DNA of 64,000 nt from Beroe forskalii (Eukaryota > Ctenophora > Nuda > Beroida > Beroidae). The notes under the pieces were generated by a model. That model was given only the letters and a program-made list of their open reading frames with translations. It was not told the DNA's origin and did not search any database. This document shows positions 9,217 through 63,829 of the stretch, piece after piece. A program made the position numbers and the translations under genes. The stretch lies in the NCBI GenBank assembly GCA_011033025.1, contig WFMF01000026.1, forward strand, positions 372,001-436,000. Direction: 5' to 3'. Positions within the stretch are counted from its first letter, which is position 1; each line of letters starts with the position of its first letter.

Positions 9217-10175
9217 GTCCTCTCCTTCTTCGGGCTCCTGCCATAGGGTTTGAATCTGCTTCTCTGATTCCCGTAAGGTGGACTCCTGTCCTGGTAGTTT
9301 CCTCTGTAGGAGAATCTCCCATTCTTTTGAGGTGGGATTCTTGCTTGGTTTCCATATGGGTTAGAGGCTCTGAAATCTCGTTGAAAACCTCTCTGATTCC
9401 TCGTGGGGTTCTGACTATAGTAGATACCCCCTGCTCTATCATCATCCTCTTCATGATAGTACTGCTGATCCTCTTCATGGCCACTGGTAAGAAACACTGG
9501 TTCCTCTTTCACCTTGACTTCTGGTGAAGCTGACTTGTAAGGTAGTGAACTCTTTACAAGTCCTGATGTGTTGAGACCATCTCCATAGGTCCTCTTCAAT
9601 GTCTCTGTCATCACTTCCACAGTGAGAGGCTTAGCAATTGCCTTCACAATCCTCTGATCCTCAACAGACAGCTCTGCCTGCATCAACATCTTGTATGCCA
9701 GAATTCCATCTTCATAGCTGTCCTTCCCCTCACGACATTCTACCACACTCTTGTAGAGTCGAGTGAATTCAGCAATGTACTCATCCATTGACATGGACTT
9801 TGAGCGTTTGAACTTCTCAAATGCATCAATAGCACAGAACAACTGTTGAGTGTTGTCCTTCAAGAACAGCTTGTCCATCTCCTTGACAAGTAGATCTAGT
9901 CCTCCTGCAACTGCCAACGTCTCTGGATCAAGTTGCACAGCTACTGTCCTTGGCTTGCCAGTCATAGCCAGGATTACTGTATGAGCCCTCTTTTTTGGAT
10001 CAACATTTGTTGCATGCTTCCAGAATGCAATCTCCTTCTTCCATGAGCTCATGAGGAATACACTGTGTTCTCTGTCAACACTGGAATGCTCTTGTAGGAA
10101 GATGTCATGATTACCTATGAATTTTGAATTCAAATTTGATATTTGAGTTAGAGTTGTATTTTCCTGAGTACTCAC
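9195..10175 (-). CDS. Retrotransposon gag-like protein
   Basis: A 326-residue uninterrupted frame begins shortly inside the right end of the fragment. The N-terminal half resembles gag proteins of LTR-type retroelements in invertebrates (WKKEIAFWKHATN, LDLLVKEMDKLFLKD, FEKFKRSKSMSMDEYIAEF, YGDGLN). The C-terminal third is rich in R, G, Y, N and P (GNYQDRSPPYGNQRSRFKPY), typical of a nucleic-acid-binding tail. No protease, integrase or reverse transcriptase of the same element is seen, and no zinc knuckle. The frame runs into the LINE endonuclease and ends at 9195, so the last few residues come from LINE DNA. A related gag piece is at about 16,270. Confidence 0.7.
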   Translation of the reverse strand: MSTQENTTLTQISNLNSKFIGNHDIFLQEHSSVDREHSVFLMSSWKKEIAFWKHATNVDPKKRAHTVILAMTGKPRTVAVQLDPETLAVAGGLDLLVKEMDKLFLKDNTQQLFCAIDAFEKFKRSKSMSMDEYIAEFTRLYKSVVECREGKDSYEDGILAYKMLMQAELSVEDQRIVKAIAKPLTVEVMTETLKRTYGDGLNTSGLVKSSLPYKSASPEVKVKEEPVFLTSGHEEDQQYYHEEDDDRAGGIYYSQNPTRNQRGFQRDFRASNPYGNQARIPPQKNGRFSYRGNYQDRSPPYGNQRSRFKPYGRSPKKERTCFIPLT

Positions 10176-11245
10176 TGCGATGGACCGTCTCCTCTTGCTT
10201 CTGCTATCACTGTTAATACCCCCATACCCTGTACCAAATATAAAGGGCAGTTATGACAAAAATATTGGAATTGGCTGCAAAAGGTCATTAAAGTTGCTTC
10301 CATGCGTTTTTCGGTAGTTTAGGGTGTAAATAATCGGAATTTCACGGGAAGCAAATTTTTCGACCTGCGGAACATGCTCCCAGGGCCACGCCCATCAGGA
10401 CCGTGGGAAAATTTTGAAAATTTTTATTTTATGGGAAATATGGCATGTGGGACCACTAACTATACCTAAAATTGGCCGCTGAGTCGATTCCCGGCAACAC
10501 TTTAGAGCAATAATGACGCCAAAAATTTCGAATATATTGCCAAAAATCGTGTTGCGCCCATGAATACAGTCAAAAATTGGATTTAAAAGTAGACAAACTC
10601 TACACCAAACGATTTTGCATGGTTTCCATGGTTTTTTGCATGAAAAATCGATCTAACAACTTTCCACATCTCTCCATGGTGAGAAAAGTGCCAAAAAATC
10701 GATTTTTTATTGAGCCAGAGCCGAGTGATATATTAAAATTCTATCTCGGCTCAGGAAGGTCGTAGAGACTTCGTTTTGGGCGGAAAATGTTCACAATGGC
10801 CATGTTTATATACGACTTGTTAACAAACATATGCCCTAAAATGCTCAAGAACGGAGTTATGGACAAAAAATCAAAATTTTGGTACCAGCGAGCCCTGATT
10901 AAGGCGATTTTTGTATCTCAGTCCATGAAGGTCTTAGAGACTTCATCTTGGGTGGAAAATGTGCTCAATGGCCATGTTTATTTAGGGCTTGTTGATGAAT
11001 ATACTGCCCTAAAATGCTCAGGAACAAATTTATGAGCGAAAAAAAGATTTTTCGGGCAGGCGCAAGACCTGATTTATGCGATTTTATCATTTTGGCTCAG
11101 GAAGGTCGTAGAGACTTCATCTTGTGTGGAAAATGTTCGCAATGGCCAAATTTATATACGACTTGCTAACAAACATATGCCCTAAAATGCTCAGAAACGG
11201 GGTTATGGCGAAAGACTAAAATTTTGGTCTGCGAGCCCTGTCTAA

Positions 11246-11560
11246 GGGGCCGTCCATAAAGGACGTCCGCAATGAGGGGGGAGTCTGGCCAATACGTACG
11301 TTTGCGGACGTAGGGGGGAGGGTGGTGTTTAGCCAAATGCGGACGTCCACAATTCATGGAAATTTTGGACGATTTGACGGCTGTTTCACTAGAAAATCAT
11401 GAAATTTCGGGGCCAAAAATGATGACCCAAAACATTTTGAAGAAAAATGCGGACGTTCGGGGGGAGGGAGGGGCTTCTGGATTGCGGACGTTTGCGGACA
11501 AGAGGGAGGGAGGGGTCTGAAATGGCCGAAATATTGCGGACGTCCTATATGGATGGCCCC
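11246..11560. mobile_element. 315-bp MITE, copy 1 (nested in the foldback element)
   Basis: Begins GGGGCCGTCCATAAAGGACG and ends with its imperfect inverse (CCTATATGGATGGCCCC). It is flanked by TAA on both sides. It sits in one unit of the host subrepeat whose unfilled form (CCCTGATTAAGGCGA) is visible near 10,895, giving a built-in empty site. The interior is strongly purine-biased (GGGGGGAG). Confidence 0.85.
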
Positions 11561-11950
11561 TAAGGCGATTTTTTAATCTCATTCCATGAAGGTCGTTGAG
11601 ACTTCATCGTGGGAGGAAAATATATCCATATACATGTAAAATCCAATATAATTTTCCAAAAACATCGGAAAATCAAATGAGGGACACTTCTTGAGACTTA
11701 AAAAACAATAGTAAAACATTTGCTCCACTATCAACTCGGCAATAAAGATTTAATTTTTAGACACGAGACTCGAATCACCCTGTATAGCTCACTCGGCGGT
11801 GCTTCGCGCCAACTCGTTCACAAGTTTTGAAAAAAGTACGGATTGAAACCATCTAGGTAACCATCCAATAATTAACCAAAAGCAAAATATTCAATTTTCA
11901 TTGTTCGTCGGTTAAACCATGTGATATGAGTCGTGCTTAAAACTATGGGT

Positions 11951-12769
11951 AAAGGGACACTTGACGCCTTGACATTACATCTCCCGACATTACATCCCCC
12001 AACACTACATCCCCCGACACTACACCCCCTTCTACAGTACTGTGAATCTATAGAGGAAAGTGGGTGGTCAAACGTTGCAGTTCGACGATTGCTGCGGCAT
12101 TTGACCCCCCCCCCCGGTATTAAATCCCCCGATGAATAAACATAGATCAAACGCACTGATACGCGGCTTAACCAAAGTGTCTAAGTGCGACATTTGACCC
12201 CCGACATCACATCCCCTCTATGTGCACAGTAAACTTCGATGCAACTGTGCTTGGGAGTGAAGGAGCTGGCGGCACTGGCCTTCGTTCTTGTTGCGGATGT
12301 TATGACTTCCTGCTGGAGGACGACGACTCCCCTTGATCTTCCCTCTCCACATGTGGAACGTCCGTGAGAGAGCTTCGGCTGGATCTGCTCGCACCACCAA
12401 CGCCCCGGAGTCCTTTCACCACTCCTTCAACTCCCTGCTGTCCTGCCACCACCCCTCAATCTGGATCCTTCTCAAGACACTCCAGACGCAGCAGAACCTA
12501 TCCAGAGCCAAGATGTTCCGTGTTACCAGAGGAGACGTGTTCAAGTAATCTGCCCTGGTGAGAAGGAGGAACGACAGGATCCAGAACCTCATCCAGAACT
12601 ACTCCAGACCTTCTGCTACAGCTTCCTATCTGGAATTCCTTACAATTACATGTCTTTCAAGTGTCGGGGGGTCAAGTGTCGGGGATGTAAAGTCGGGGGA
12701 TGTACTGTCGAGGGATGTACTGTCGGAGGATGTAATGTCGGGGGGGGGGGGGGTTAAATGTCGCCCTTT
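11951..12769. mobile_element. MULE-like nested element, copy 1
   Basis: An ~820-bp insert starts AAAGGGACACTTGAC and ends with the inverse of AAAGGGCGACATTTAAC. Each end has several ~16-bp units of the type CGACATTACATCCCC, in opposite orientation at the two ends. The centre encodes a broken transposase-like segment. The same insert is present in copy 2 of the host element. Confidence 0.7.
12330..12545 (+). pseudogene. Transposase C-terminal fragment (MULE-like)
   Basis: Residues include MWNVRERA, RTTNAPESFHHSFNSLL, CHHPSIWILLK and QNLSRAKMFR. This resembles the segment near the C terminus of MULE-type transposases (RTNNxxEGFHxxFxxxxxxxHPxIWxF). There is no catalytic core upstream, and a stop precedes the continuing frame (NDRIQNLIQNYS), so it is a remnant. 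Confidence 0.5.
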
Positions 12770-12858
12770 CCGCCCAAAACGAAGTCTCTACAACCTTCAA
12801 GAACTGAGATTTAAAAAATCGGCTATACTTGGCGCAATAACTATAACTAAGTATTGGC

Positions 12859-13024
12859 TGACGTGATCAAAACCTTTCAACCCCACTAGATCGGCACTGG
12901 AGGCACCCATCAACTTGAAACTCTCAGTACACGGAACGTGTCCACACTCCGTATACTGAAAGTTCCAAGTTGATAGGTGTCTCCAGTGCCGCCCAAGTGG
13001 GGTTGAAAGGTTTTGATCACGTCA
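12859..13024. repeat. Perfect-armed palindromic element, copy 1
   Basis: The arms TGACGTGATCAAAACCTTTC and its exact inverse enclose ~165 bp, with an inner inverted repeat (AACTTGAAACTCTCAGTA with its near inverse). A second hairpin around GGAGTGTCACCTCCAGAGGC follows at about 13,030-13,100. It would form a long stem if transcribed or extruded. Confidence 0.8.
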
Positions 13025-13763
13025 TGTAGTTGAAACTTTCAGTTCATGGAGTGTCACCTCCAGAGGCGACACTCCACGAACTGAAGGTTTCAAGTACATA
13101 GGTGGTTTCAACACTGCCTCAGAGAAGTTCCAAAACTTCGATTGTGTGGAGTACTCGGCCAATACTTATTGCGCTGAGTTTAGTCTTTCATATAAACGAG
13201 AGCCTTCATTATCTAAGACAATGACGTAGATACCCAGAAAAATATAATTTAGCCCATCGAGCACTTAAAAGATAAGGGTTAGGATCAGGATTAGGGTCAG
13301 GATTTGTAAAATTTAGGGTAAGGATTAATGTTAGGGTTATGGTTAAGGTTATGTTTAGGATTAAGATACAAAAAGATTGAGGTTTTTATCTGTGACGTCA
13401 CTAAAGAGCCGTTTATATGAGAGAGAAACCGAAAAGTTGCCTTCACCAGGGCTTGCGGGTACCAAAATGCCCATAAATCCGTTCCTGAGCATTTTAGGAC
13501 ATTATATGTTTGTTAACAAGTCAAATATACACATGGCAATTGCTAAGTTTTTTCTCCCAAGATGAAGTCTCTACGACCTTCCTGAGCCGAAATGATAAAA
13601 TCGCATAAATCAGGTCTTGCGCCTGCCCGAAAAATCAGTTTTTCGCCCATAAATTTGTTCCTGAGCATTTAAAGGCAGTATATTCATCAACAAGCCCTAA
13701 ATAAACATGGCCATTGAGCACATTTTCCACCCAAGATGAAGTCTCTAAGACCTTCATGGACTG

Positions 13764-14425
13764 AAAAAAGATTTAGGAGTGCAAGTTGTCCCGTCTCTAA
13801 AATGGAATGCCCAGCACAAAAAATTGCTAAATAAGGCCAGTCAAAAAATTGGCCTTCTTAGAAGAAATTGCTCCTTCAATAGAAACACAAATCAACGTAA
13901 AATTTTATTTTTAGCTATAATTCGGTCACAGTTTGAGCACTGTTCACAAATTTGGAGGCCTGTGCACAAAACAAACATCGATAAGTTTGAAGCCATGCAG
14001 AAAAGAGCCGTTAAGTGGGTTTTCAGTGAAGATTTTTGCAGCTATACCAAATCAGAATACCACCTTAAATTAAAGAATCTAGATGTCCTGCCAATGAAAT
14101 ACAAGTTTGATTATAACGACTTAGTCTTGTTCTATAAGATGTTTAATCATCCTAGCCCATTTTCAAGTATCCCTGAATATCTTAGGAAAGCACCTCCCTG
14201 ACCCAAAATTAACTCGATATACTAGGAGTATGTCATCATCTGATGAACTTCAATTAGAATGCTCCATAAAACCTAGAATAGATGTTTTAAAAATTCATAC
14301 TTCTACCGCACACATTTACTTTGGAATGAAGTTCCATTGAATATAAGATCTGAAAATTGCTTAACAACCGTTAAGACTAAACTCAAGGAATATCTCTGGA
14401 TGAAAGCGGACAGTGAATTTGACTA
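13764..14425 (+). pseudogene. LINE reverse transcriptase, C-terminal part
   Basis: KDLGVQVVPSLKWNAQHKK, then NKASQKIGLLRRN, IIRSQFEHCSQIW, MQKRAVKWVF and a tail with WNEVPLNIR is the classic region behind the reverse transcriptase of CR1/L2-like LINEs. The upstream half is missing because copy 1 of the foldback element abuts it. The frame breaks near 14,200 and continues in another frame to about 14,425. Confidence 0.8.
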
Positions 14426-18302: not shown

Positions 18303-19473
18303 TTAAGAAAAAGTCCGACAGAGCAACAGCTGACTCCTGCAGAAAAACAAATGGACAGCACGCCCAGTCAAACTCACCAAAACGTACTCTTTAGCACAAT
18401 AATCATGATAAATAATAAATAATCATAATAAAAGCTAGGTACCTATATAACTATATAGTTAGGGCAGTTATGACAAAAATATTGGAATTGGCTGCAAAAG
18501 GTCATTAAAGTTGCTTCCATGCGTTTTTCGGTAGTTTAGGGTGTAAATAATCGGAATTTCACGGGAAGCAAATTTTTCGACCTGCGGAACATGCTCCCAG
18601 GGCCACGCCCATCAGGACCGTGGGAAAATTTTGAAAATTTATATTTTATGGGAAATATGGCATGTGGGACCACTAACTATACCTAAAATTGGCCGCTGAG
18701 TCGATTCCCGGCAATATTGAACACTTTAGAGCAATATTGACGCCAAAAATTTCGAATATATTGCCAAAAATCGTGTTGCGCCCATGAATACAGTCAAAAA
18801 TTGGATTTAAAAGTAGACAAACTCTACACCAAACGATTTTGCATGGTTTCCATGGTTTTTTGCATGAAAAATCGATCTAACAACTTTCCACACCTCTCCG
18901 GGGTGAGAAAAGTGCCAAAAAATCGATTTTTTTTATTGAGCTAGAGCCGAGTGATATATTAAAATTCTATCTCGGCTCAGGAAGGTCGTAGAGACTTCGT
19001 TTTGGGCGGAAAATGTTCACAATGGCCATGTTTATATACGACTTGTTAACAAACATATGCCCCTAAAATGCTCAAGAACGGAGTTATGGACAAAAAAATC
19101 AAAATTTTGGTACCAGCGAGCCCTGATTAAGGCGATTTTTGTATCTCAGTCCATGAAGGTCTTAGAGACTTCATCTTGGGTGGAAAATGTGCTCAATGGC
19201 CATGTTTATTTAGGGCTTGTTGATGAATATACTGCCCTAAAATGCTCAGGAACAAATTTATGAGCGAAAAACTGATTTTTCGGGCAGGCGCAAGACCTGA
19301 TTTATGCGATTTTATCATTTCGGCTCAGGAAGGTCGTAGAGACTTCATCTTGTGTGGAAAATGTTCGCAATGGCCAAATTTATATACGACTTGCTAACAA
19401 ACATATGCCCTAAAATGCTCAGAAACGGGGTTATGGCGAAAGACTAAAATTTTGGTCTGCGAGCCCTGTCTAA

Positions 19474-19788
19474 GGGGCCGTCCATAAAGGACGTCCGCAA
19501 TGAGGGGGGAGTCTGGCCAATACGTACGTTTGCGGACGTAGGGGGGAGGGTGGTGTTTAGCCAAATGCGGACGTCCGCAATTCATGGAAATTTTGGACGA
19601 TTTGACGGCTGTTTCACTAGAAAATCATGAAATTTCGGGGCCAAAAATGATGACCCAAAACATTTTGAAGAAAAATGCGGACGTTCGGGGGGGAGGGAGG
19701 GGCTTCTGGATTGCGGACGTTTGCGGACAAGAGGGAGGAGGGGTCTGAAATGGCCGAAATATTGCGGACGTCCTATATGGATGGCCCC
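19474..19788. mobile_element. 315-bp MITE, copy 2
   Basis: Same as the copy at 11,246 with the same TAA flanks, nested at the equivalent place in the second foldback element. Confidence 0.85.
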
Positions 19789-20178
19789 TAAGGCGATTTT
19801 TTAATCTCATTCCATGAAGGTCGTTGAGACTTCATCGTGGGAGGAAAATATATCCATATACATGTAAAATCCAATATAATTTTCCAAAAACATCGGAAAA
19901 TCAAATGAGGGACACTTCTTGAGACTTAAAAAACAATAGTAAAACATTTGCTCCACTATCAACTCGGCAATAAAGATTTACTTTTTAGACACGAGACTCG
20001 AAACACCCTGTATAGCTCACTCGGCGGTGCTTCGCGCCAACTCGTTCACAAGTTTTGAAAAAAGTACGGATTGAAACCATCTAGGTAACCATCCAATAAT
20101 TAACCAAAAGCAAAATATTCAATTTTCATTGTTCGTCGGTTAAACCATGTGATATGAGTCGTGCTTAAAACTATGGGT

Positions 20179-20992
20179 AAAGGGACACTTGACCCCTCGA
20201 CATTACATCTCCCGACATTACATCCCCCGACACTACATCCCCCGACACTACACCCCCTTCTACAGTACTGTGAATCTATAGAGGAAAGCGGGGGGTCAAA
20301 CGTTGCAGTTCGACGATTGCTGCGGCATTTGACCCCCCCCCGGTATTAAATCCCCCGATGAATAAACATAGATCAAACGCACTGATACGCGGCTTAACCA
20401 AAGTGTCTAAGTGCGACATTTGACCCCCGACATCACATCCCCTCTATGTGCACAGTAAACTTCGATGCAACTGTGCTTGGGAGTGAAGGAGCTGGCGGCA
20501 CTGGCCTTCGTTCTTGTTGCGGATGTTATGACTTCCTGCTGGAGGACGACGACTCCCCTTGATCTTCCCTCTCCACATGTGGAACGTCCGTGAGAGAGCT
20601 TCGGCTGGATCTGCTCGCACCACCAACGCCCTGGAGTCCTTTCACCACTCCTTCAACTCTCTGCTGTCCTGCCACCACCCCTCAATCTGGATCCTTCTCA
20701 AGACACTCCAGACGCAGCAGAACCTATCCAGAGCCAAGATGTTCCGTGTTACCAGAGGAGACGTGTTCAAGTAATCTGCCCTGGTGAGAAGGAGGAACGA
20801 CAGGATCCAGAACCTCATCCAGAACTACTCCAGACCTTCTGCTACAGCTTCCTATCTGGAATTCCTTACAATTACATGTCTTTCAAGTGTCGGGGGGTCA
20901 AGTGTCGGGGATGTAAAGTCGGGGGATGTACTGTCGAGGGATGTACTGTCGGAGGATGTAATGTCGGGGGGGGGGGTCAAATGTCGCCCTTT
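20179..20992. mobile_element. MULE-like nested element, copy 2
   Basis: Matches the element at 11,951 apart from a few substitutions and a shorter G tract. It contains the same transposase-like fragment at about 20,556-20,771 (RTTNALESFHHSFN; copy 1 reads RTTNAPES). Confidence 0.7.
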
Positions 20993-21081
20993 CCGCCCAA
21001 AACGAAGTCTCTACGACCTTCAAGAACTGAGATTTAAAAAATCGGCTATACTTGGCGCAATAACTATAACTAAGTATTGGC

Positions 21082-21246
21082 TGACGTGATCAAAACCTTT
21101 CAACCCCACTAGATTGGCACTGGAGGCACCCATCAACTTGAAACTTTCAGTACACGGAACGTGTCCACACTCCGTATACTGAAAGTTCCAAGTTGATAGG
21201 TGTCTCCGGTGCTGCCCCAGTGGGGTTGAAAGGTTTTGATCACGTC
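21082..21246. repeat. Perfect-armed palindromic element, copy 2
   Basis: Second copy of the palindrome at 12,859, with identical outer arms (TGACGTGATCAAAACC and its inverse). Confidence 0.8.
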
Positions 21247-22649
21247 ATGTAGTTGAAACTTTCAGTTCATGGAGTGTCACCTCCAGAGGCGACACTCCAC
21301 GAACTGAAGGTTTCAAGCCCATAGGTGGTTCCAACACTGCCTCAGAGAAGTTCCAAAACTTCGATTGTGTGGAGTACTCGGCCAATACTTATTGCGCTGA
21401 GTTTAGTCTTTCATATAAACGAGAGCCTTCATTATCAAAGACAATGACGTAGATACCCAGAAAAATATAATTTAGCCCATCGAGCACTTAAAAGATAAGG
21501 ATCAGGATAAGGGTCAGGATTTGTAAAATTTAGGGTAAGGATTAATGTTAGGGTTATGGTTAAGGTTAGGTTTAGGATTAAGATACAAAAAGATTGAGGT
21601 TTTTATCTGTGACGTCACTAAAGAGCCGTTTATATGAGAGAGAAACCGAAAAGTTGCCTTCACCAGGGCTTGCGGGTACCAAAATGCCCATAAATCCGTT
21701 CCTGAGCATTTTAGGGCATTATATGTTTGTTAACAAGTCAAATATACACATGGCAATTGCTAAGTTTTTTCTCCCAAGATGAAGTCTCTACGACCTTCCT
21801 GGGCCGAAATGATAAAATCGCATAAATCAGGTCTTGCGCCTGCCCGGAAAATCAGTTTTTCGCCCATAAATTTGTTCCTGAGCATTTTAGGGCAGTATAT
21901 TCATCAACAAGCCCTAAATAAACATGGCCATTGAGCACATTTTCCACCCAAGATGAAGTCTCTAAGACCTTCATGGACTGAGATACAAAAATCGCCTTAA
22001 TCAGGGCTCGCTGGTACCAAAATTTTGATTTTTCGTCCATAACTCCGTTCTTGAGCATTTTAGGGCATATGTTTGTTAACAAGTCGTATATAAACATGGC
22101 CATTGTGAACATTTTCCGCCCAAAACGAAGTCTCTACGACCTTCCTGAGCCGAGATAGAATTTTAATATATCACTCGGCTCTGGCTCAATGAAAAAATCG
22201 ATTTTTTGGCACTTTTCTCACCCCGGAGAGGTGTGGAAAGTTGTTAGATCGATTTTTCATGCAAAAAACCATGGAAACCATGCAAAATCGTTTGGTGTAG
22301 AGTTTGTCTACTTTTAAATCCAATTTTTGACTGTATTCATGGGCGCAACACGATTTTTGGCAATATATTCGAAATTTTTGGCGTCAATATTGCTCTAAAG
22401 TGTTCAATATTGCCGGGAATCGACTCAGCGGCCAATTTTAGGTATAGTTAGTGGTCCCACATGCCATATTTCCCATAAAATAAAAATTTTCAAAATTTTC
22501 CCACGGTCCTGATGGGCGTGGCCCTGGGAGCATGTTCCGCAGGTCGAAAAATTTGCTTCCCGTGAAATTCCGATTATTTACACCCTAAACTACCGAAAAA
22601 CGCATGGAAGCAACTTTAATGACCTTTTGCAGCCTGATTGGCATAACTG

Positions 22650-30613: not shown

Positions 30614-33600
30614 ATGCCTACAGAAATTATAACGACCAAAAGGAACACAGAAATAGGGAGACTCTTGGAAAGAGTTATACGTGATCATAGGAAGGACATC
30701 TCTGCCTATAGTAGAGGTTTGTGGGTTTGTTACTTAACATAATATATACCAGGTGGCACATAAAAGTTAACAAAAGTAATGTGTGATAACTTTAGCTGCA
30801 TTTAGATTTTCTTGATGGAAACTAAACTTGAAATTCAGGATGTCATAGATATGGATGATAAGCTTGTGCCTCAAGAAACATAAAATACGTCTGTATTGAG
30901 GGGGGAGTCTGGCCAATGCAGACATTTGTGGACATAGGGAGGAGGGGGTGTTTGGCCAAATGTGGACATCTGGCATCTGCAGTTGTTGGAAATTTTGACA
31001 GGTATTTCACTAGAAAATCATGAAATTTTGAACCCAAAATGATGTCCCAAACGATTTTCACAAAAATACAGATTTCCGGGGGAGGGAGAGATTCCTCAAA
31101 TGCAGACGTTTGCAAACAAGGGGGACTGGAGAGGGAGGGGTCTAAAATGGCCAAAATGTTGCAGACATCCTAGTTAAATACCTGTCAACATACATTATGA
31201 AATTATAATCACGAAACCCAATTATAATCATATATTTGAATTCTAACCTCCAAGTTTTAGGCCACCTCAATGAAAACAATCTATACAAGCCTCCTGAGGC
31301 TGGAAGAAAATCTTGGGAAAGTGCCAAGCTTCCAGCAATCAAACTGAAACATGCTGTCTCAGTAAGTTAAGATGAATAAATGAGGATCTATCAAAGTCAT
31401 TAATTATATATTAGTATATTACTATCTTACTACCAATGGAATGTGTTGAATTGCTGAAGCCTGAACATGATGTGTTACTTATCTTTTAAAGCTGGAAATG
31501 ATCTCAATATTGAATGACCGAGTCATTTAGCATTTCAAAATTTTTAGCCTACTTATACCAAAAGGCTACTCAGGTTGAAAAAGAAGACCGAGATAAGAAA
31601 ATGTGGGATGCTGTAGCTTGCTTTTCTGCAGGTTCGCCCTTTGGAGCTATCAAACCTGTAGGGAAACCTAAGGCGAGCCCAGAAGATCCATTACAGGTAT
31701 TTTTACTTTTGAATAAAATGAGTGAGCATAAAATTGACATCGGCATTGAATTTAATTTAAATCAATTTATTATACCTAATTAATGTACGATATATAACAG
31801 TATGTACCTTGTACATTCCACAGGGAATGAGTGTTGAAAAAGACAATGTCAATCTGGAGGAATTTGATGCATCGTATTTCATGATTCCCAAAGCTGATGG
31901 TTTTAGAGTGAGTTGAACCCAAATTTATTTTGAAAATAAAACTGGTTAATTGCAGCTCTGCCAGAAGAATATGCTCTGTGCTCATCATTCTGATGTCCAA
32001 TCTCTGATCGCATCTTGAAAGCATTAAAAGTAACAAAATATAGGCACATCAAATTGGCATCAGTTGAAACTGACTGTCTTAGAATACCTAGAGTTTAATA
32101 GTTTACGAATAATTTGATGTCCAAAGTTGTAATAATAATGAAGCACATTATTGGATGTTCAGCGTCGAGGTATCAATTTCTTTGATCAGTTTTCATTTGA
32201 CAGACAGTTCATAACCGCAGCCGTTTGGAACCCCAACGAAAAGAAGCGAAGTAATAACACAATAATATGTTCAGGTAGTACCTAGCCTGGAGGGATGTCT
32301 CAGTAAAAAGGACGAGATGGCACAGAGGAGGCTCTTTGACGATCAGATCGTCGAAAAACATAATCTAACTGACAGAGGCTGGTACGATGGTACTAGAGCT
32401 ACTAAGAACATCAAGTTCAACCCTGAGAAATCTAATAATATCCAAGTAAGACTTAACATCTCACAATTCCTGATATGAGGCTTGTGAAGTAGCTAGGTTT
32501 ACCTTTTTACACGTGGAAAGTTGTTATTGCACTATTATTACTTGTTGAGTCCTGCTTTACGCAACAATTTGTTGATATAGCAGGACTCAGTAGGAGTTTT
32601 GATGAGGCGTTGGGCCTTAAGATCATGTCAGTAAGTCTGTAGAATGGAGAAAATTATCACCTTGGGTTAGAGCAATGTGGGCAGTGCTCGACCACTGCCA
32701 TTATGATTTTCACATTGCCTGAATTCAAATGATGGCTGCTAAAAGAACTTAATGTCAGGCATATCAGAAGCTGTGGGACGAAGTCTCTAACTCGTGTAAC
32801 TTGTACAGCCCTGTTCTTGGAGATATCAGGGACTTCTACCTCGGTTATCATAGCTTCCTTAAACAGTCCCCCGATACCACACAGACTACCACTGGTTAGT
32901 TGAAAATGTTTGTCAATTACTTGCTAGAAGACACGTGTAAATTACGGTGCTATCAGCTGTTCTAAAAAGATCGTAAGGACTTTTTTACTAGTTAACTCGT
33001 GAAAATAGCATGCCAGTACAGTTTGATCCAACTAGTCCAAGTATGTCAAAGAATTTCCGATTTTTCCAGGGTTACCATGTGGTCAGATTGCACAAAAATT
33101 TTGTTTCATTTGCACGGGAAGGATAAAATTATGCGGCAAAGTTTTACCACAGGAACATGACCAAGATTAGCCGCCATTAGCCTCCATGGAGGCTGAGTGG
33201 AGCCTAGTGGAGGCTGAGTGGAGCCTAGTGGAGGCTGAGTGAAGGCTAGTGGAGGCTGAGTGGCGGCTAGTGGAGGCTATTGGAGGCTGAGTGGAGCCTA
33301 GTGGAGGCTACTGGAGGCTGAGTGGAGCCTGAATAGAGGCTAGTGGATGCTATTGGAGGCTAATGGAGATTGAGTGAAGGCTAGTGGAGGCTGAGTAGAG
33401 CCTAGAGCATTGAAAGAAGAAAAGTAAACTGAACAAAAAGTTAAGTGCTAATAAGTGATAATAATATACTGCATAATTCTAATATAAGTATGTAATATTT
33501 TGTACTGCCGACACTGGAATACAATTAATAATCAATAAAATGCCAGGGGTCCAAGTGTGTAGTGTGTAGAATGTATTGCACCAACAGTTGTTGTCATCTC

Positions 33601-36600
33601 AGCAGACAACAGATTATTAACTGATGACTGAAGAGGCGATGTTTTGACAGCGAGAGGACCAATTCGTATCTTAGGATTTACGAGCGTGGCTGATGATTCG
33701 TAAATTGAAATTAATTTACCAAACGCATCTCTTTATTTCATTCCATTACCCAAAACACACCCGAAACGCCCCAAGATAAACCTTCATAAAATGTAAGTTA
33801 ATTTTTGGCGAATTGCGACAGGAGCCCGCGCGCGTACTGTAATCACATCAAAAATTCCGTTCCAAAAATCCCATCACTCAGGTTACGAACAGAATCCTTC
33901 TACCACAGAGTTCCCCCGGAGGCCACGATGCCCCCTATCATCTCCAGCCCAAACCCCCAACTTAGCCATTGCCACCCCGATTCCCGAAGACCCCTCCCTG
34001 CCTCCTTAATATGCGTTGCGTAAGTGAATCATCTAGCACCCTAACTACCTTCTTCAGTTTTTAAATGGAAATTAAGGCAAATCACGCAAGACTACCTGCT
34101 AAGATTTTATTGGGAAGGCAAACATGTGCATTTACTTTTTCTGAAGAAGATTCCTCAGAAAAGTAAGTGCACCTGTAAGCTGGTGGTTTACCACTGAACA
34201 CAGCTCTTTAACCTCAGTTAACTCCCATGTTACACAGTATACACACAATGAAAACTACTCCTATAATCCATGCCAAGGATTGTGCTGGGTTTGACCCATG
34301 GGAACCAGGCAATCTAGACAGCGAGGTTGCCAGTCTCTCAACTCCTTTATTTTAAAAACACGCACTGCAACTGCCGCTCTCACTTTATAACTTCTCCGTG
34401 ATGGTAATCCTGGCCGTTCTGCTGTTTAGTGCTCTTTTAGGCGTCACTGAATCCCAATATAGCTGTTTTGACACTGTTCCTGGTGTCTATCTTGGCTATC
34501 GTATGTTGTACCCAGCCGCGTACACCAGTCCACTGAGGCACGCTCACCATCTCTGTAGCTTGGATGACGAATGTATGGGGTTCGCGTGTGACAATTATTG
34601 CGACTCAAGTGATAGGTGTTGTCTGGTCAGATTCATGGAGAACATGGAACACAAGAACGTGGGCGATGAAGGATTTGATGAGTATATGAGCAGAGTAACA
34701 CACAGTGGGAAGGGGGAGCAGTACAGGAGTTTTGTGAAGAAAGTGGGTTGCGTTGAGGATGGCTAAGGAGAGGATGGAGGTGATGATGATAGCAATGCTA
34801 ACAATATTATCATTAACGAGAGCAGCATTAACGATGGTGCAGCATCATCGAAAGCAGCATTAACGATGACAACATTAACGATAGCAGCGCGTTAACGATT
34901 GCAGCATTAACGATAGTTGCATTAACGAAAGCAGTAAAGACAGTGACACAACCGCAGACGACGATGAACAAGTGTGTATTGACAAATTAATGTTAATGTC
35001 ACTGAATCCCAATACAGTAACAAGTAATCCCAATATAGTAACAAGTTTGGTTGCTCTGGTTGCGTTAACATCGAATACATGATATCCGATATATGCTGGA
35101 TATTATGAGGGAAGTAGATAGACTACGCATGTTTTGTTTTGTTTTGTTTTGTTTTGTTTTGTATACACTAAGCACGGTAAAACTACTTGTTAGGGAAAAG
35201 TAGTCGAGAAAAGATCATGCTACAAATATAAGAATCATTAGTTAATAATGAACGGTGAAGAATGAATGGTACTACTAACAATTTAAGTACTTAATTAAAA
35301 CAGAAAGGTCCTCATGGGCTAAAACGGGTCATCCGCCGGGCTAGGGCGACCGCGCAGCACGAAGTGTACTGCACGCGATTTCCCAGCCTCCAAGCCCAAG
35401 AAACCATACACCCCGGAGGCCGTGCGTACCACTGTACACACCCCGACTGATACCTAAAGCCGAAAAAATTAAAACTAAAAAGAACCACTGTTTTTAAAAG
35501 AAAAGAATTGAAGGTTAAAGAGTTAAGGTTAAGAATTCATGCTTGACAGAACTTTCATAACAAACTTACAGTAGGACAGTAGCTTTCGTACGTAATAAAC
35601 GTGAAACAGACAAACAACAATTGTTAGTAGGAAAAACATAGAGAGTACAACATTGTTTTTTAATCTATAAACTACAGTACAGAATTGCTGTAGTTTGCAT
35701 TTGGACCGTGCATATCTCAGGGTTACAAATGGCAACAGACTTGTCTCGCTTGATTCATTGATTTAATTGATATCAGTCTTACACTTAATTGCAATTAATA
35801 ATAACCTTATTTTCTTTCTTCTTTTCTCCGATTGAATCTATCTACTGCATAATAGTTTGATACTATTCATAAATTAAGTTCCTCTACTACGCTTCTGTTG
35901 AATGTGTACAGTGAATTATGTTGTTTGTCAAACATTTGAAGGCATGATAACTTACTTTATCTTTATCTATTCATTATTTTCTATCGATTCTTAGCATTTA
36001 CTAATTAATTGAGTTATTGTTTAATAGTTTGGTTACGGTTCGGGGTGCATATGGACTGGTTTCACCCTCTATATGTGCGGCCTCCGATCAGGGGTATAGG
36101 TTTCTTGAGGTTGGAGGCCGAAATAATGGAGTGAAGTCACCTTATGCCGCACAATCACCCCAGACCTTGAGTACCTTAAAATAATCAATCTGTATTTAGG
36201 GTTAACAATGTCGAAAGTAAAGTTGAAACCGAGCCTGGTGATCATTGCAAGTCTAGCTACCCTAACCAATATCAGTCTCTTCTACCGTTCCACTTCCCTG
36301 ACACACGGTTAGTTCATCTTAATTCCTTGTTTAATGGAAGTTGAGAAATATATAGGTATTCTGGATTGGTATCGGCCATACCGTACCAATGTTTGATTGA
36401 GATTATTCCTCGATATAAAAAGTCGGAACGATGAGCAAGTATTGTCGCATTAACCTATAAAATGCCACAACCCCTAATTAAATAATTAGCCCCAAAATTA
36501 GCTATTGACATTCTAACTCCGATCTCCCACAGGATTTGAAGTTCCTTCTCCGCAGTGTCTACGACCCTCTTCCACCAACCACCTGATCAGCCTTCTCAAC

Positions 36601-39600
36601 CAATCAGACACGACCATTACCCGGCTCTCCTGTTTCCACGGCCTCCTACAACTCATGAACTCGCTATACCAAGTCGACATCAGCATTGATCACGTGACAG
36701 TGCCAGGTACCATGGTGCCGCTGGTCCGTGACACCTGGTTCCGGGGCAATACCACCCTCTACACCATGTTCCAACACCCCCAGACACTCACCGTAACAGA
36801 TCGGTACACCTCGGAGACCTCAAATGTCAACCTCATCCGGTCTCTGAGACCTAAACCTGCCTCTACGGGGAGTGACGATGCGTTGACAGCGGTGAGGAAG
36901 CTGATAGAAGCCGCCCGACCGGGCTGTAACTTCTGCGACACAGACCACACAGTGGAGGACTCCTTTGGGAGGGTGCGGGTGGCGCAGAGCAACATCTTCA
37001 CTGCCGAGAACTCGTTCCGCTTCCTGGACTACTCAGGGCTGGTGATACCGGGGGACATCCACTCCTTCCTGGAGATGGACTACCCTACTCTCCGGAGTAT
37101 GGTAGTGGAGGCTGCAGTACCCTGGTTCAGGAACATACACTCCCTACACGGAGCTAACACCCACCCTATCATGGTATGGGATATCATGAGCAAGGCAGGA
37201 GCCAGCCAGGTCCACCCCCATATCCACACCTTGCTGGGGAGGGGCAGATACCCCGGCAAGTGGGGCCTCATGGACCAGGCCCGGACTCGTTACCATGACG
37301 ACACAGAAGGGAGGGACTATCTCCAAGATATTGTGGACTTGCACGTGTCCCTGGGACTAGGGATACGTTACCGGTCAGCTGCAGTGATAGTGAGCATCAA
37401 CCCCGTCAAGGACAGGGAGATATGGGTCATTGGGACGGGTAACATAACGGATTGGACCTGGCTGCACTACCTGGCGTACCGGACCTTTATAGATGAGCTG
37501 GAAGTGTACTGTTTCAGTCAGTCGATGGCACTGCCTGTATCTCACGTGACAGGGAAGAGGGGAGAGGGTGTTTCAGGAGACCTGATGGTGGCTAAGATAG
37601 GGGCACGGGGGGACTGTACCAGCCCTTTTAATGATGTCAGTGCGTTAGAGTTGTATGCTACTAACAGCATAGCAACGGATTACTACGAAACTATGAGGGC
37701 TTTCCAGAGAACTTTCCACAAATATAGTGGCCCTTGAAAACTCGGACAATTGAATAGAGTTAGGTTATCAAATTCTATATTAACTCACCTTATCAATTAT
37801 TTTGTATTTGTGTTCAGGTAATATTCTACTTTGTATAGAATTCTAATTCTGATGAAATACTAATATGTGTTGAATACAAGAATATTCAACACTACTTTAT
37901 ACAATCAAATTTGAGGAATGCTAAAGATGAATGTACGAATGAAAATTCGAAGATGTCAAATTCCTGAATAAAACTTGTTGTGTCATTGCCCTCCAATCAA
38001 AACTAAATTAAAATATTCGATCAAGGCACTTAATAAACCCCCAGCGCAAAAAATAGGCGATTTAACGTCACGAATCTGGGAATGTTGTGAGAAAAACGAT
38101 TTTGTAAACCAACCTACTACATTATGCTATGATAATGACGTCATCTTAACCGCCTATTTCTCGAATGAGTATAGCCACAGCATTTAACCTGTTCCTTATT
38201 GAGATGCTTCATTCATCACACTTCATGCTACTCAGGTCCATTAACATTAAGATCGATGAGTGAAAGCCCATTGGATATAGGAATATATTGAATATTTAAT
38301 ATTGCGTAACATGATAATGTTGTGGAGGCTGAGTAGAGGCCAGTGGAGGCTGAGTGGAAGCTATTGGAGATTGAGTGAAGGCTAGTGGAGGCTAGTGGAG
38401 GCTGACTGGGGACTCAGTGGAGACTAGTGGAGGCTGACTTGAGGCTAGTGGAGACTGAGTTAAGGCTAGTGGAGACTGAGTGGACCCTAGTGGAGGCTAG
38501 CGGAGCCTAGTGGAAGCTGAGTGGAGGCTAGTGGAGGCTGAGTGAAGGCTAAGTGGAGGCTGTGTGGAGGCTAGTGGAGCCTGAGTGGAGCCGAGCCTAC
38601 TGGAGGCTGAGTGGAGCCTAGTGGAGGTTGAGTGGAGGATAGTTGGAGCTGTCTGAAAGTTTGAATCTATAATTCCAAATTTGTGCACATTTTACCAGTT
38701 TCAGCCTCCATTTTGTTTCATGGAGGCTAGTTAATTTAAGCTTAAACCATCCTCCAAATAGCCTCCATTAGCCTCCTTATTAATGCCCTAGCCTCTACGA
38801 AAATGTTATATTTCAGTTTCCGTGGAGGCTAATGGAGGCTAATTCTTCAGTGGCGGTTAGTGGAGGCTAAAGCAAAATTTTAGCCTCCATGGAGGCTGCG
38901 TGGAGGCTGAGTGTCGGCTAATGGAGGCTAGTGGAAGCTAATTAGCCTCCGGAGTGGAGGATATTTTTCAAAAATTAGCCTATTGCAACCATTAGCCTCC
39001 ATGGAGGCTAATTCTTGCAATTAGCCTCCACTCAGCCTCCACTCAGCCTCCACCCAGCCTCCACTAAGACTCCATGGAGGCTAATGGAGGCTAATTTTGG
39101 TCATGTTCCTGTGGTTAAACTTTGCCAATTATGCTGTCTCGTTGGACAAAATAAAATTATTCTAAATTATTACTCAAGTAACTATGAACATAGAAAAGGT
39201 ACTAAAATCATTTCGCGTTCTTTGCATCCTCAGCTGAAGAAAAGACAGCAGATTTGATGGAAAAGAACGAAAACATAAACTTGCTTACGGACGAAGTCGC
39301 CAGTTTAGAAAACACGGCACTGAAGATTATGAAAACTAATGAGAGGCTCAAAGAACAGCATGTGAGTCGTAATAATATCCCTCATTCTGATACAGATCTG
39401 TGTGATCTCATACGAACCCTGCACCCCTGTAACTCTAACTGGTAAGGTAGCACCCTCTACCCTAAACCCCTTTAACCAGCTAGGTAGCACTACACCTTTA
39501 ACTGGGTAGTTACCATCCATAATTACATAATTCTACACCCAATCAACTGATCAAGAACCACCCTTCTCCCTGCCCCCTTTCACGTTGCCAGGCGTTGCCT

Positions 39601-54100: not shown

Positions 54101-56954
54101 AGAGACAACGCCTGAACCTGCTGTCAATAAAACCCCGACTCCTGAACCTCCTGTAAATAAAACCCCAACGCCTGAACCTCCTGTCAATAAAACCCCCACT
54201 CCTGTGACCCCTGATGGGGACACAAAACGGGGTTCCTTCAGCCGATCGTCTTCTGTCCTCAGCTCCGACGACCCACTTGAGATAGCAGACCAATGTCTGG
54301 CCGAGCTGGCAGAGACACCACCCATCCCGTCCATATCTGTGGGATCACCCGTCAAATCCCCACCGTCACCTCGCCACAACGCGTCACTAGTCCTGCTAAT
54401 GACTTCATCAAGCCGTCCATTGGCGTCACCAGTCCCACTAACCACACTCCCAATAACATTGGCAGTCCTCCGCCCCAAACCCTAAAGCCCGCACCAGCGC
54501 CATCACGGAGGGTTAGTGCCCCGGCAATGGCGGGAAATCCAGCAGGTTTCAAGACCCATGTCCCGGGAATATTCGGCAAGATCCAATCTAAGATGGATCC
54601 CTCCGCAAAGCTGATTGAGGAAGAGGAAGAGGAGGATATGATCTTCCCGCCAAAGTTTGTAAAAGCCAAGTCTGAGACCCACATCAAGCCCAAGACAGCA
54701 GAGGACGTAGTGAGGGGGAACACGTTGGCAGCACCCCCTCAAATGAGCAGGAGGGTGAGTGCCCCTGCCATGCCCAGTAGGGGAGGCTTCAAAACCCATG
54801 TCCCGGGGATATTCAACAAGATCCAAGCTAAGTTGGATTCAGCTCTGGTTGACGAGGGCAGCGATTCTGATTGAAGTGACGTGGGATTTGGGTGTTAGAC
54901 CTCACTCAGGAATGCTGGACTGTCTGTTGTTATCAATACTCTGTGCTTGAAATCACAATTAAATGGGACATAGAGACAAACAAGGTTATAACCAGCCTGA
55001 TAAGTGTGGAGACTTAATCGGACAATGCGTTTAGGTATCAAAAGCAAGTGATGCCCACACCATGAGGATCCTGAACTACACATTCTGTTTGCAGAGACAT
55101 TCATCAAAAAGTGTGTCAACTTGAATAAACTATGAAATGGCCTTGAGAAATTGAATGGTCCAATTACCATTAGCACTTGGGTCAAGACTCAAGAACAATG
55201 TGCAATCAGCAAATGAAGACTGATGAAATCAATGATTGATGTACAGCCGTATTTTAGGAACTCAACTAACAATTAAGACTTGTATAAGTTATACTTAGCT
55301 ATTGAGTAAGGATCAATTGGCTTTTGTTCGAAAGGACTAATTAACTGAATGATATCTTTTCGATATTTTACTGGATGCTACCCATCCATTAGGGTAAAAT
55401 ATACAAATCTATACAGTCATTTTTGATTGATTATAAATTTAATATGGGGTATGACTGATGTGCACTACTCTTAAACGGTGAATACCTTAATCTTAACGAC
55501 GTAGATAATATAGAAGCGTAGGTATTATAGTTGACACGTATCAAACAAATTGTCATTTCTGTAGTAACCGCAGATGAATAATTTGTATTTGATCTGAATT
55601 TCGTTTTTTTAATGAGAATTTGAAAGTTTTGAATAATTAAGTAATTATAGATTCCTAGCTTTGTACTTTTGTCTTTCTGTCAGCAGCTTCCTTACTCCAA
55701 GAGACTCTAAGATTGAAACGGTTATAAGAAATTAAAAGGTATGTTTCTGTCTAATTTTCAATATGAACGAAAATTGAATCTCAGCAGACTGGTGATAAAA
55801 TTTAAAAGAATTAACTTCTTGTTTCTATTAATTTTCCCCAAATCCTCAGCCTATCATTTTGTCTTTGGTCAAAATCAGACTGGACCTAAGTTACACTGTA
55901 TACTGACTGCACCTAACTACCCAACATAATGTTATTATTATTTGAAATTGAGAGGTTTCAGCTGCAGCACAGGCACATTGTAAAAATACACAGAGTATTT
56001 GTTCATAATCACAGAATTAATTTAAAGCTTATAGTCTGTACGGAAACATTCCGCAATCTAGGAATATCGTTGTTGACTCAATCAGACTGAAGTTCATGAA
56101 GTTCGATTTAGACGACTTTCACCATTGAGCATTCCGACATATTTGTAAATTTTCCAAGTTGTCACAACATAATTCACTGGTAAATTAAGCGTTCTGTTGA
56201 CTCCAGTATCACACCAACCACATAATTATTACGATATTACGATGTGTTTTGTTCCCAGAGTGGCGTTAGACGACGCTCCTAACGTGAAGATAATGAAGCA
56301 CTTCGAGAAAACGACCCGGAGGATATTTGACGTAATCAAGACGGGAGGGAAGGTGATTGTGACGTGTCGGGCTGGGATCAGCAGGTCAAGTACCATAGTC
56401 CTGGCCTTCCTCATGAGGTACCACAAGATGAAACTAGCAGACGCGCACAGACTCGTGATAAGCAAGCGACCTAAGGTAAGAAGCACTCTCAAGTTGTTTT
56501 TGAATAGTTCATGGTATGGAACTGGCCAGAAAACATGAAACTGTGAGCCCTCGAATGAAATAAGAAGTAGATTTACAAGTGCACAGTATTTAGTAACCCA
56601 CTCTCCTCTCTCAGGTCCGTCCAAACGACGGGTTTCTAAAAACACAGTATTTGGTAACCCGTCCTCCTCTCTCAGATCCGTCCTAACGACGGGTTTCTAA
56701 AAACACAGTATTTGGTAACCCGTCCTCCTCTCTCAGATCCGTCCTAACGACGGGTTTTTAAAAACACAGTATTTGGTAACCCACTCTCCTCTCAGATCCG
56801 TCCTAACGACGGGTTCTGGAAGCAGCTTGTAGAGTACGAGAGACTGCTGTACGACACAAACACAGTGCAGTTGGTGAGGACTAAGGACGGGCTGATACCC
56901 AGTGTCTACTTGAGTGACACCCCTCCGTCCAGAGAAGCTTTAGACACACTGTGA
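48199..56954 (+). CDS. Atypical dual-specificity phosphatase, DUSP14/18/21-like
   Basis: Exons 48,199-48,238 (start uncertain), 48,488-48,596, 56,259-56,475 and 56,796-56,954 join in phase into a ~174-residue protein. It starts with MTFDEICHNHLYLGSW as in small DUSPs, has the general-acid loop VALDDAPN and the active-site loop VTCRAGISRSST (Cys nucleophile, Arg). It then has AFLMRYHKMKLADAH, RPKIRPNDGFWKQL and NTVQLV...GLIPSVY, which line up well with the C-terminal signature of DUSP14/18/21. The His before the catalytic Cys (usual HCxxGxxR) is Thr. The substrate is presumably phosphoprotein. The last intron ends in a four-copy acceptor array, and another gene is nested in the third intron from the end. 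Confidence 0.9.
48608..48870. repeat. Minisatellite next to the DUSP exon 2 donor
   Basis: Imperfect units of CATCTACTGAATGATTGACA and CCAGTCA begin about 10 bp after the 5' splice site at 48,597 and decay rightwards. Confidence 0.8.
48875..53300. other. Large DUSP intron, left part
   Basis: AT-rich. CCAAT-like boxes (ATTGG) cluster at 51,140-51,190 and 52,450-52,520, the latter with CACGTGAC, and could belong to a promoter for the nested gene at 53,308. No coding region is recognised. Confidence 0.4.
53308..54874 (+). CDS. Low-complexity RRVSAP-repeat protein with two apparent frameshifts
   Basis: Three abutting frames (53,308-~53,820; ~53,820-~54,375; ~54,375-54,874), each shifted by -1 from the last, together encode ~520 residues. 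Repeated modules cross the shifts. RRVSAP or RRVSCP occurs four times, and FKTHVPGIFGKIQ or a variant follows the last three. (D)DPxExADQxLxEL occurs twice, and there is a run of TPTPEPPVNK units. An acceptor-like CTCTCAG lies just before the ATG. RRVSAP fits basophilic kinase (PKA-type) and 14-3-3 mode-like sites. I do not recognise the family. It lies on the same strand in a large intron of the phosphatase gene. Single missing bases in the assembly would explain the shifts; real pseudogenisation is the alternative. Confidence 0.65.
54880..56250. other. 3' flank of the nested gene and rest of the DUSP intron
   Basis: AT-rich DNA with no gene or repeat family recognised. Confidence 0.45.
56583..56820 (+). 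repeat. Four-copy array of a 3' splice site (DUSP last exon)
   Basis: Units of 59-61 bp each contain the pyrimidine tract, CAG and the exon start (CTCTCAG|ATCCGTCCTAACGACGG). AGs end at 56,614, 56,675, 56,736 and 56,795. Only the last leads to the full C terminus (GFWKQL); the first three reach a stop within about 25-45 codons. Confidence 0.9.
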
Positions 56955-57038
56955 CACCAGTGTGAAGTGACAACAGTGACACCAGCCTCTTTAAAGTTAC
57001 TCGTTGAAACGAGAGAGAAATTCATAAAACTTTGTGGT

Positions 57039-57300
57039 AAAACTATGTCTATGTGACCGAGATTCGTGTTTCAGTGATTATTGTACCCGATTTAGAGGAG
57101 GTTAACTTCAGACGTGGTTAAACTATGTCTATGTCAACGAGGCTCGTGTTTCAAAGATTACTACCCAACTTAGAGGAGGTTAACTTCAAGTCCAGACGTG
57201 GTAAAACTATGTCTATGTGAACGAGACTCGTGTTTCAGTGATTATTGTACCCAATTTAGAGACTCGTGTTTCAGCGGTTATTGTACCCAATTCAGAGTTT
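57039..57300. repeat. ~77-bp tandem repeat in the presumed DUSP 3' UTR
   Basis: Three full units and one partial around AAACTATGTCTATGTGAACG, CTCGTGTTTCAGTGATTATT and AGAGGAGGTTAACTTCA follow the phosphatase stop codon. Confidence 0.8.
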
Positions 57301-58479: not shown

Positions 58480-60235
58480 GAGAGATGCTGAGAGGAGAAG
58501 GAGGGTTAGAGATAAGGTGAGGAGGTGTAGTTTTGGAAAGGTGTGTTAGAGGTGCTGAGAGGAGGAGGAGGGTTAGAGATTGGGTGAGGAGGTGTAGTTG
58601 TGGAAAGGTGTGTTAGAGGTGCTGGGAGGAGGGGGAGGGTTAGAGATTGGGTGAGGAGGTGTAGTTGTGGAAAGGTGTGTTAGAGATGCTGGGAGGAGGA
58701 GGAGGGTTAGAGATTGAGTGAGGAAGTGTAGTTGTGGAAAGGTGTGTTAGAGGTGCTGGGAGGGGGAGGAGGGTAAGAGATTGGGTGAGAGAGCAGTTGT
58801 GGAAAGGTGTGTTAGAGATGCTGGGAGGAGGAGGAGGGTTAGAGATTAGGTGAGGAGGTGTAGTTGTGGAAAGGTGTGTTAGAGGTGCTGGGAGGAGGAG
58901 GGTTAGAGATTGGGTGAGAAGGTGTAGTTGTGGAAAGGTGTGTTAGAGATGCTGGGAGGAGGAGGAGGGTTAGAGATTGAGTGAGGAAGTGTTGTTGTGG
59001 AAAGGTGTGTTAGAGGTGCTGGGAGGGGGAGGAGGAGGGTGAGAGAGCAGTTGTGGAAAGGTGTGTTAGAGATGCTGGGAGGAGGAGGGTTAGGGCTGTG
59101 GAAAGGTGTTGAGATGCTGAGGAGGAGGGTTAGAGATTGGGTGAGGAAGTGTAGTTGTGAAAGGTGTGTTAGAGGTGCTGGGGAGGAGGGGGTTAGAGAT
59201 TGGGTGAGGAGGTGTAGTTGTGGAAAGGTGTGTTAGAGGTGCTGGGAGGAGGAGGGTTAGAGATTGGGTGAGAAGGTGTAGTTGTGGAAAGGTGTGTTAG
59301 AGATGCTGGGAGGAGGAGGAGGGTTAGAGGAAGTGTAGTTGTGGAAAGGTGTGTTAGAGGTGCTGGGAGGGGGAGGAGGGTAAGAGATTGGGTGAGAGAG
59401 CAGTTGTGGAAAGGTGTGTTAGAGATGCTGGGAGGAGGAGGGTTAGAGATAAGGTGAGGAGGTGTAGTTTTGGAAAGGTGTGTTAGAGATGCTGAGAGGA
59501 GAAGGAGGGTTAGAGATTGGGTGAGGAGGTAGTTTGGAAAGGTGTGTTAGAGGTGCTGGGAGAGGGTTAGGATTGGGTGTGGAGGAGGTGTTGTGGGGTG
59601 TTAGAGATGCTGGGAGGGGAGGAGGGTTAGAGATTGGGTGAGGAGGTGTAGTTGTGGAAAGGTGTGTTAGAGATGCTGGGAGGAGGAGGGTTAGAGATTG
59701 GGTGAGAAGGTGTAGTTGTGGAAAGGTGTGTTAGAGATGCTGGGAGGAGGAGGAGGGTTAGAGATTGAGTGAGGAAGTGTAGTTGTGGAAAGGTGTGTTA
59801 GAGGTGCTGGGAGGGGGAGGAGGGTAAGAGATTGGGTGAGAGAGGAGTTGTGGAAAGGTGTGTTAGAGATGCTGGGAGGAGGAGGGTTAGAGATTGGGTG
59901 AGGAGGTGTAGTTGTGGAAAGGTGTGTTAGAGGTGCTGGGAGGGGGAGGAGGGTTAGAGATTGGGTGAGGAGGTACAGTTGTGGAAAGGTGTGTTAGAGA
60001 TGCTGGGAGGAGGAGGAGGAGGGTTAGAGATTGGGTGATGAGGTGCAGTTGTGGAAAGGTGTGTTAGAGATTCTGGGAGGAGGAGGAGGGTTAGAGATTA
60101 GGTGATGAGGTGTAGTTGTGGAAAGGTGTGTTAGAGATGCTGGGAGGAGGGGGAGGGTTAGAGATTGGGTGAGGAGGTGTAGTTGTGGAAAGGTGTGTTA
60201 GAGATGCTGGGAGGAGGGGGAGGGTTAGAGATTGG
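58480..60235. repeat. ~67-bp minisatellite array, left block
   Basis: About 26 units containing GGAAAGGTGTGTTAGAGATG, CTGGGAGGAGGAGG and GTTAGAGATTGGGTGAGGAG. Units differ by GGA-triplet number and small deletions. The + strand is almost free of C. Reading frames here are by-products of the repeat. Confidence 0.95.
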
Positions 60236-60469
60236 GTTCCTACCCCCACCACCGACCCTACCCCCGACTTGGCTCCCCTCATCCAGAACGTCACCAAACA
60301 ACTCGGAGACGGAATGGAATCCTCGGTCACACACCAGGTTACCTCTGTATTGTCTGACTATGACCCACAACGTGACACTACCCGTGACAATTTGACTAAA
60401 CAACAACGTTCTGCTTTGACATCACTCAAGAAACTTAAGTCTGAACTGCTTTCTTCCTGCTGACAAAGG

Positions 60470-63826: not shown

Positions 63827-63829
63827 AAT

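Follow-up and report, generated by a model that had tools for sequence, protein, structure and literature searches.

A 5,992-bp terminal-inverted-repeat element with predicted gene cargo in an intron of a TSNAXIP1-like gene of Beroe forskalii

Contig WFMF01000026.1 of the Beroe forskalii assembly GCA_011033025.1 contains an element of 5,992 bp (33135–39126) that is bounded by terminal inverted repeats (TIRs) and, at both of its outer edges, by a target site duplication. The coordinates used here are those of the window, the whole stretch of 64,000 nucleotides that was analysed (positions 372,001 to 436,000 of the forward strand), counted from its first base. Between its ends the element is predicted to carry an intact gene with one intron, here called gene B, and probably a second, smaller gene, here called gene A, and it lies in a predicted intron of a TSNAXIP1-like host gene. 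We lean towards the reading in which this cargo was joined to the ends elsewhere, the whole unit then being inserted at its present site by a transposase acting in trans.

The left TIR (33135–33205, + strand) starts with GGCAAAGTTTTACCACAGGAACATGACCAA and is 92% complementary to the right TIR (39056–39126, − strand), the two 71-nt arms differing at six positions. Their outermost 30 bases agree at 29 of 30 positions; the 30-bp terminal sequence of the element is GGCAAAGTTTWACCACAGGAACATGACCAA and its termini read GGCAA. Directly outside the left end stands the 8-bp sequence AATTATGC (33127–33134), of which a perfect copy follows the right end (39127–39134). On the + strand of the window this sequence occurs at these two sites only, while its complement is found at 33471 and 39933. 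Inverted ends directly bounded by a duplication of equal length are the hallmark of cut-and-paste TIR transposons, and both are present here. The initial annotation, made from the sequence alone, was thus right about the perfect duplication flanking the unit and about the two inverted ends, which it put at about 60 bp each and which measure 71 nt (6 mismatches).

The same arrangement was sought throughout the window, starting from the 2,740 pairs of exact inverted 12-mers lying 100–15,000 bases apart. Under a strict rule, which demanded at least 24 matches among the inner 30 bases, no more than nine among the outer 20, and a perfect duplication adjoining each end, 33135–39126 was the only case with an 8-bp duplication. 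No case was returned for duplications of 7, 9 or 10 bp, and at 6 bp the rule yielded the same site again, offset by one base. A looser scan for duplications gave 19 extra candidates, all of which fail the strict rule and were read as sites within longer inverted repeats or minisatellites. The full terminal repeat occurs no more than twice in the window, and its outer 30 bases have no other match there than one of 15 nt (57033–57047), which makes the ends unlike those of two independent small elements.

The exons on either side of the element join in phase 1 across it. The upstream exon (32759–32894, + strand), the start of which was read by eye, is TSNAXIP1-like and ends G|GTTAGT, and the downstream exon (39234–39361, + strand) appears to belong to the same gene. 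Both were picked by eye from a simple exon scan and by direct reading, with TSNAXIP1 in mind from general knowledge, and the join was tested afterwards; neither had the best score among the candidates around it. Residues 1–85 of the joined peptide match positions 25–111 of the Pfam profile TSNAXIP1_N (E = 4.6e-5), with a score of 24.1 bits that lies below the curated cut-off of 27. Since this match spans the junction at nearly equal lengths, the two exons were taken as parts of one TSNAXIP1-like gene, and the join supports the placement that had been proposed, inside a host intron with the phase kept across the insertion. As it stands the intron measures 6,339 nt; with the element and one copy of the duplication taken away it would measure 339 nt. 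Four AATAAA sequences within the intron share the orientation of the host gene (33534, 35594, 37967 and 38032) and could truncate host transcripts.

Gene B is solidly predicted as an intact gene with one intron. Its first exon (36208–36307, + strand) encodes a hydrophobic stretch, read as a signal anchor, and ends G|GTTAGT in phase 1, and its second exon (36533–37737, + strand, stop included) follows the acceptor CCACAG|G. The predicted product has 434 amino acids (431 if an alternative acceptor 9 nt further is used), and a possible polyadenylation signal, AATAAA (37967–37972, + strand), lies about 230 nt past the stop. None of 300 dinucleotide shuffles of the interior (33421–38320) produced a frame as long as its 406 codons, the maximum being 230.

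The label HIT/GalT-like, which had been attached to this protein, holds at the level of motifs. The predicted protein carries CNFC at position 165 and then GASQVHPHIH with HPH at 261, in the same order as CFLC at 52 and GCSNPHPHGQ with HPH at 164 in the GalT of Escherichia coli, but no significant alignment between the two proteins was obtained, which limits the likeness to these motifs. Neither does the protein match any Pfam or NCBIfam family at E values up to 10, nor any chain of the PDB at E values up to 5. Single-sequence structure models of exon 2 and of its core reached mean predicted local distance difference test (pLDDT) scores of 31 and 32, respectively. Gene B fits the pattern CxxC followed by G-x-S-x-x-H-P-H-x-[QH], which was itself derived from the comparison of gene B with GalT and from general knowledge of the family. 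In a search for relatives of gene B, seven stretches of prokaryotic contigs matched a pattern, none of which was confirmed, and relatives were found neither in viral contigs nor in phages.

Gene A (34401–34766, + strand) would encode a protein of 121 amino acids with a hydrophobic N-terminus and eight cysteines, and no family match. It is graded as probable rather than proven because its frame is not significant by length: in 43 of the 300 shuffles the longest frame attains 136 codons, and the length of the open reading frame (ORF) was dropped as evidence for a gene. The cargo had been described as two intact genes, which is sustained for gene B, with its intron and its 434 residues, but only as a probability for gene A. 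Four stretches retrieved from viral contigs were not confirmed as relatives of gene A. Its protein matched four chains of Rab5 exchange factor in the PDB at non-significant E values (0.17–0.46), and like the gene B product it found no match in NCBIfam. Within the frame of gene A, a 20-bp segment (34443–34462) recurs downstream at 34998–35017 (95% identity) and 35019–35038 (75%), which suggests local duplication. Between the two genes lies an imperfect inverted pair, the left arm of which (35338–35422, + strand) is identical at 64 of 90 positions to the complement of the right arm (36078–36166, − strand; E = 2e-9 in a comparison of 311 by 301 bases); these arms may have bounded an old element nested at this place.

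The cargo had been said to include no transposase, and this was borne out in the frames that were scanned. Among the 56 ORFs of at least 45 amino acids in the element, 41 were scanned, and no transposase family was matched at a meaningful score in these or in genes A and B; the frames of gene A and of exon 2 of gene B were treated separately, and the remaining 13 consist of frames at the edges of the element, minisatellite frames and overlaps with gene B. Five weak matches arose (E values of 0.08–0.15), including one to CxC1, the cysteine cluster associated with KDZ transposases, in a frame opposite gene A (34598–34762), which at E = 0.15 and 12.7 bits (cut-off 26.9) was attributed to chance. 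Likewise, no transposase was recognized among the 70 ORFs scanned of the 133 in the window that span at least 75 amino acids.

Next to each end the element contains minisatellites. The left array (33187–33405, + strand) has a period of about 21 nt (10 + 11) and shares with the large right array (38322–38648, + strand) the unit TGGAGGCT, spaced at about 10 or 11 nt. A third, small array lies further out on the right (39023–39074, − strand), with 4.7 copies of AGCCTCCACTC. The initial annotation had called the minisatellites mirrored, which is only partly right: the small outer array is indeed inverted with respect to the left one, but the left and large right arrays are oriented alike, with ten forward and no reverse copies of TGGAGGCT in 33187–33420 and 11 forward and no reverse copies in the large right array. 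In 39013–39126 the same unit occurs twice in the forward and four times in the reverse orientation.

The class of the ends cannot be read from the duplication length, on which an earlier assignment to a hAT-like class had relied. The terminal consensus of hAT elements is YARNG, which the GGCAA ends do not fit, and on account of these termini hAT was rejected as a conclusion; nothing beyond the length of the duplication pointed to it. Duplications of 8 bp are produced by hAT and Zisupton elements (PMC12730594), and also by Merlin (PMC8101967) and Mutator-like elements (MULEs; PMC5225508, PMC6446971), the last with a range of 8–11 bp (PMC6446971), so that the 8-bp AATTATGC agrees with hAT, Zisupton, Merlin and MULE lengths alike. 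Merlin elements are described as having terminal GG, TIRs of 24–462 bp and duplications of 8–9 bp (PMC8101967), and the present element, with terminal GG, a 71-nt TIR and an 8-bp duplication, resembles them in these features but differs from them in having no recognized transposase. The transposase of Merlin elements is a DDE enzyme of the IS1016/IS1595 type.

The likeness to animal Mutator-like elements is of a similar kind. Muta1 of Aedes makes duplications of 8–9 bp, and ten of 12 Muta families with long TIRs have subterminal tandem repeats of 9–15 bp, whereas the TIR of the present element is shorter than those of 12 of 14 Muta families, which exceed 100 bp (PMC5225508). Spectre elements combine TIRs of 74–76 bp with 8-bp duplications, and Rehavkus elements have a minisatellite ahead of the 3′ TIR but duplications of 9 bp (PMC6446971). 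The present element differs from these animal Mutator-like elements in the lack of a transposase and in having its large arrays oriented alike rather than mirrored. From the ends themselves we infer an element that is either Merlin-like or Mutator-like.

The origin of the cargo allows several readings, of which the one we favour proceeds in three steps. A genomic stretch of up to about 4.9 kb, including gene B with its intron and probably gene A, would have been placed between the ends at another site, in an event at the DNA level. The GG-ended inverted repeats, perhaps together with the subterminal repeats, would then be recognized by a transposase provided in trans, and the whole 5,992-bp unit would be excised and inserted into the 339-nt intron of the TSNAXIP1-like gene, duplicating AATTATGC. 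The retention of an intron and of its own AATAAA by gene B argues for acquisition at the DNA level; movement as a unit, a transposase in trans and capture from elsewhere are what we infer from the structure as a whole.

Several observations weigh against this sequence of events. Only a single copy of the element was seen, and single-copy Pack-TIRs, which are TIR elements carrying DNA of other origin, are in animals mostly ascribed to gap filling in place (PMC8277862). The 8% divergence of the TIRs could indicate an old insertion, gene A may not be a gene, and neither a source gene nor a further copy nor a transposase came to light, copies and sources having been sought within the 64-kb window.

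Gap filling in place is possible, although we consider it somewhat unlikely. A small TIR element would have inserted and made the AATTATGC duplication, then broken, and template-switch repair would have copied the genes into it, so that the 6-kb unit never moved. The duplication had been taken as showing that the entire unit was mobilized in one piece. This conclusion does not stand, because a small element that is broken and refilled leaves identical ends (PMC8277862). Gap filling has been inferred to underlie most Pack-TIRs that are single-copy in animals, and it would suit the large minisatellites beside both ends, as repetitive TIRs have been proposed as sites of fork stalling and breakage (PMC8277862). 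On the other hand, it favours nearby sources: in 160 of 281 known cases the source lies within 15 kb (PMC8277862), yet neither blastn nor tblastn found a source copy of the cargo in the window, which extends 33 kb to the left and 25 kb to the right, and this counts for insertion as a unit. The filler would also be large here, since the largest interior of a human Pack-TIR measures 3,585 bp and raising the permitted size to 10,000 bp added none in humans (PMC8277862).

It is quite unlikely that the two genes are long-standing residents, carried as accessory genes by a transposon family of which this copy lost its transposase or never had one. Both frames are intact despite the 8% difference between the TIRs, and neither protein was matched to a family, two points in favour of this reading, whereas gene B resembles a cellular enzyme by motif. 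Moreover, intactness is weak evidence: in a simulation of neutral change, in which insertions and deletions were not modelled, both frames survived in about 10% of cases at 4% change per site and in about 30% at 2%. Intact frames were dropped as a signal of selection for the same reason, and the two TIRs may already have differed when the element inserted.

It is highly improbable that the ends belong to a pair of small elements of separate origin, or are TIR-like repeats without relation to each other, on either side of genes that were nested in the intron before. This reading was rejected, because one perfect duplication joins the outer sides (a chance of 1 in 65,536 per pair of ends at equal base use), the strict rule returned no other such case in the window, and no additional full copy of either end is present there.

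Gene-carrying TIR elements are already established in animals, and the view that Pack-type elements are known mainly in plants, on which the novelty of the case had first been based, is outdated: 370 Pack-TIRs have been reported from 100 animal genomes, Ssk-FB4 of Drosophila has an almost entire gene aboard (PMC8277862), and in Aedes fragments of host genes occur in about 20% of Muta1 derivatives (PMC5225508). Animal Pack-TIRs have DNA unrelated to transposable elements between the ends of one TIR element, with a duplication outside. The present element has the same layout, and its interior may be of the same nature, although the inverted pair between genes A and B is a possible nested transposable element. 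The survey, which covered interiors of 100–5,000 bp, required a source copy and an annotated transposable element (PMC8277862), while the element described here was read from the window alone. In encoding no recognized internal transposase it agrees with both Pack-TIRs and Pack-MULEs. Ssk-FB4 is comparable in bearing its nearly complete gene between repetitive foldback ends and differs in its duplications of 9–10 bp and its TIRs of about 700 bp (PMC8277862). The Ising element of Drosophila is a further animal case, known still earlier, of DNA segments mobilized between foldback transposons, although there hundreds of kilobases lie between complete foldback elements (PMC6431247).

What sets the present element apart from the animal Pack-TIRs and Ssk-FB4 is its cargo, which reaches at most about 4.9 kb and comprises a complete gene and a second, probable one, and it is this size and completeness that would be unusual. 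Acquisition of full-length genes has been described as exceptionally rare in Helitrons and likewise in Pack-MULEs (PMC6431247). A complete intron-bearing gene aboard, or perhaps two, would, if the prediction is correct, amount to whole-gene duplication by a cut-and-paste transposon. The empty site to be expected can be specified down to the single base, so that gap filling in place could be tested precisely against assembly followed by transposition. We regard as unlikely the stronger proposal of a mobile two-gene cassette, in which complete genes for a secreted cysteine-rich protein and a membrane-anchored GalT-like enzyme would travel as one unit, regulatory DNA included, between ends of Merlin or Mutator type and function after transposition; were it true, a transposon would be spreading working genes and not fragments.

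Wider searches added little to this picture. A 22-base TIR pattern had no exact occurrence in viral or in prokaryotic contigs, neither of which collections would contain the host, and the minisatellite pattern had none in viral contigs. Rfam gave no matches, and further searches of the PDB had best E values of 0.73 and 0.68, neither of them significant. When the TIR and minisatellite strings were sought in the literature, 56 papers contained one of them; the 20 listed matches concerned only the 10-base string and came from papers unrelated by title.

Elsewhere in the window, two 3.5-kb copies (10244–13764 and 18461–21981) are 98% identical, and each contains mirrored 15-bp minisatellites, which in the first copy lie at 11971–12029 and 12662–12744; this is perhaps a second foldback-like structure in the genome. 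Retroelement remains occupy 8698–10250 (− strand), with an endonuclease–reverse transcriptase domain in 8701–9360, and the 70 scanned ORFs of the window gave one match to RVT_1, recorded without its ORF of origin. A second host-type gene is suggested by a dual-specificity phosphatase catalytic domain at 56173–56538 (E = 8.3e-20). Finally, two large related minisatellites with a 67-bp unit (58481–60237 and 62427–63827) flank frames at 60420–61970 that look retroelement-like by eye only.

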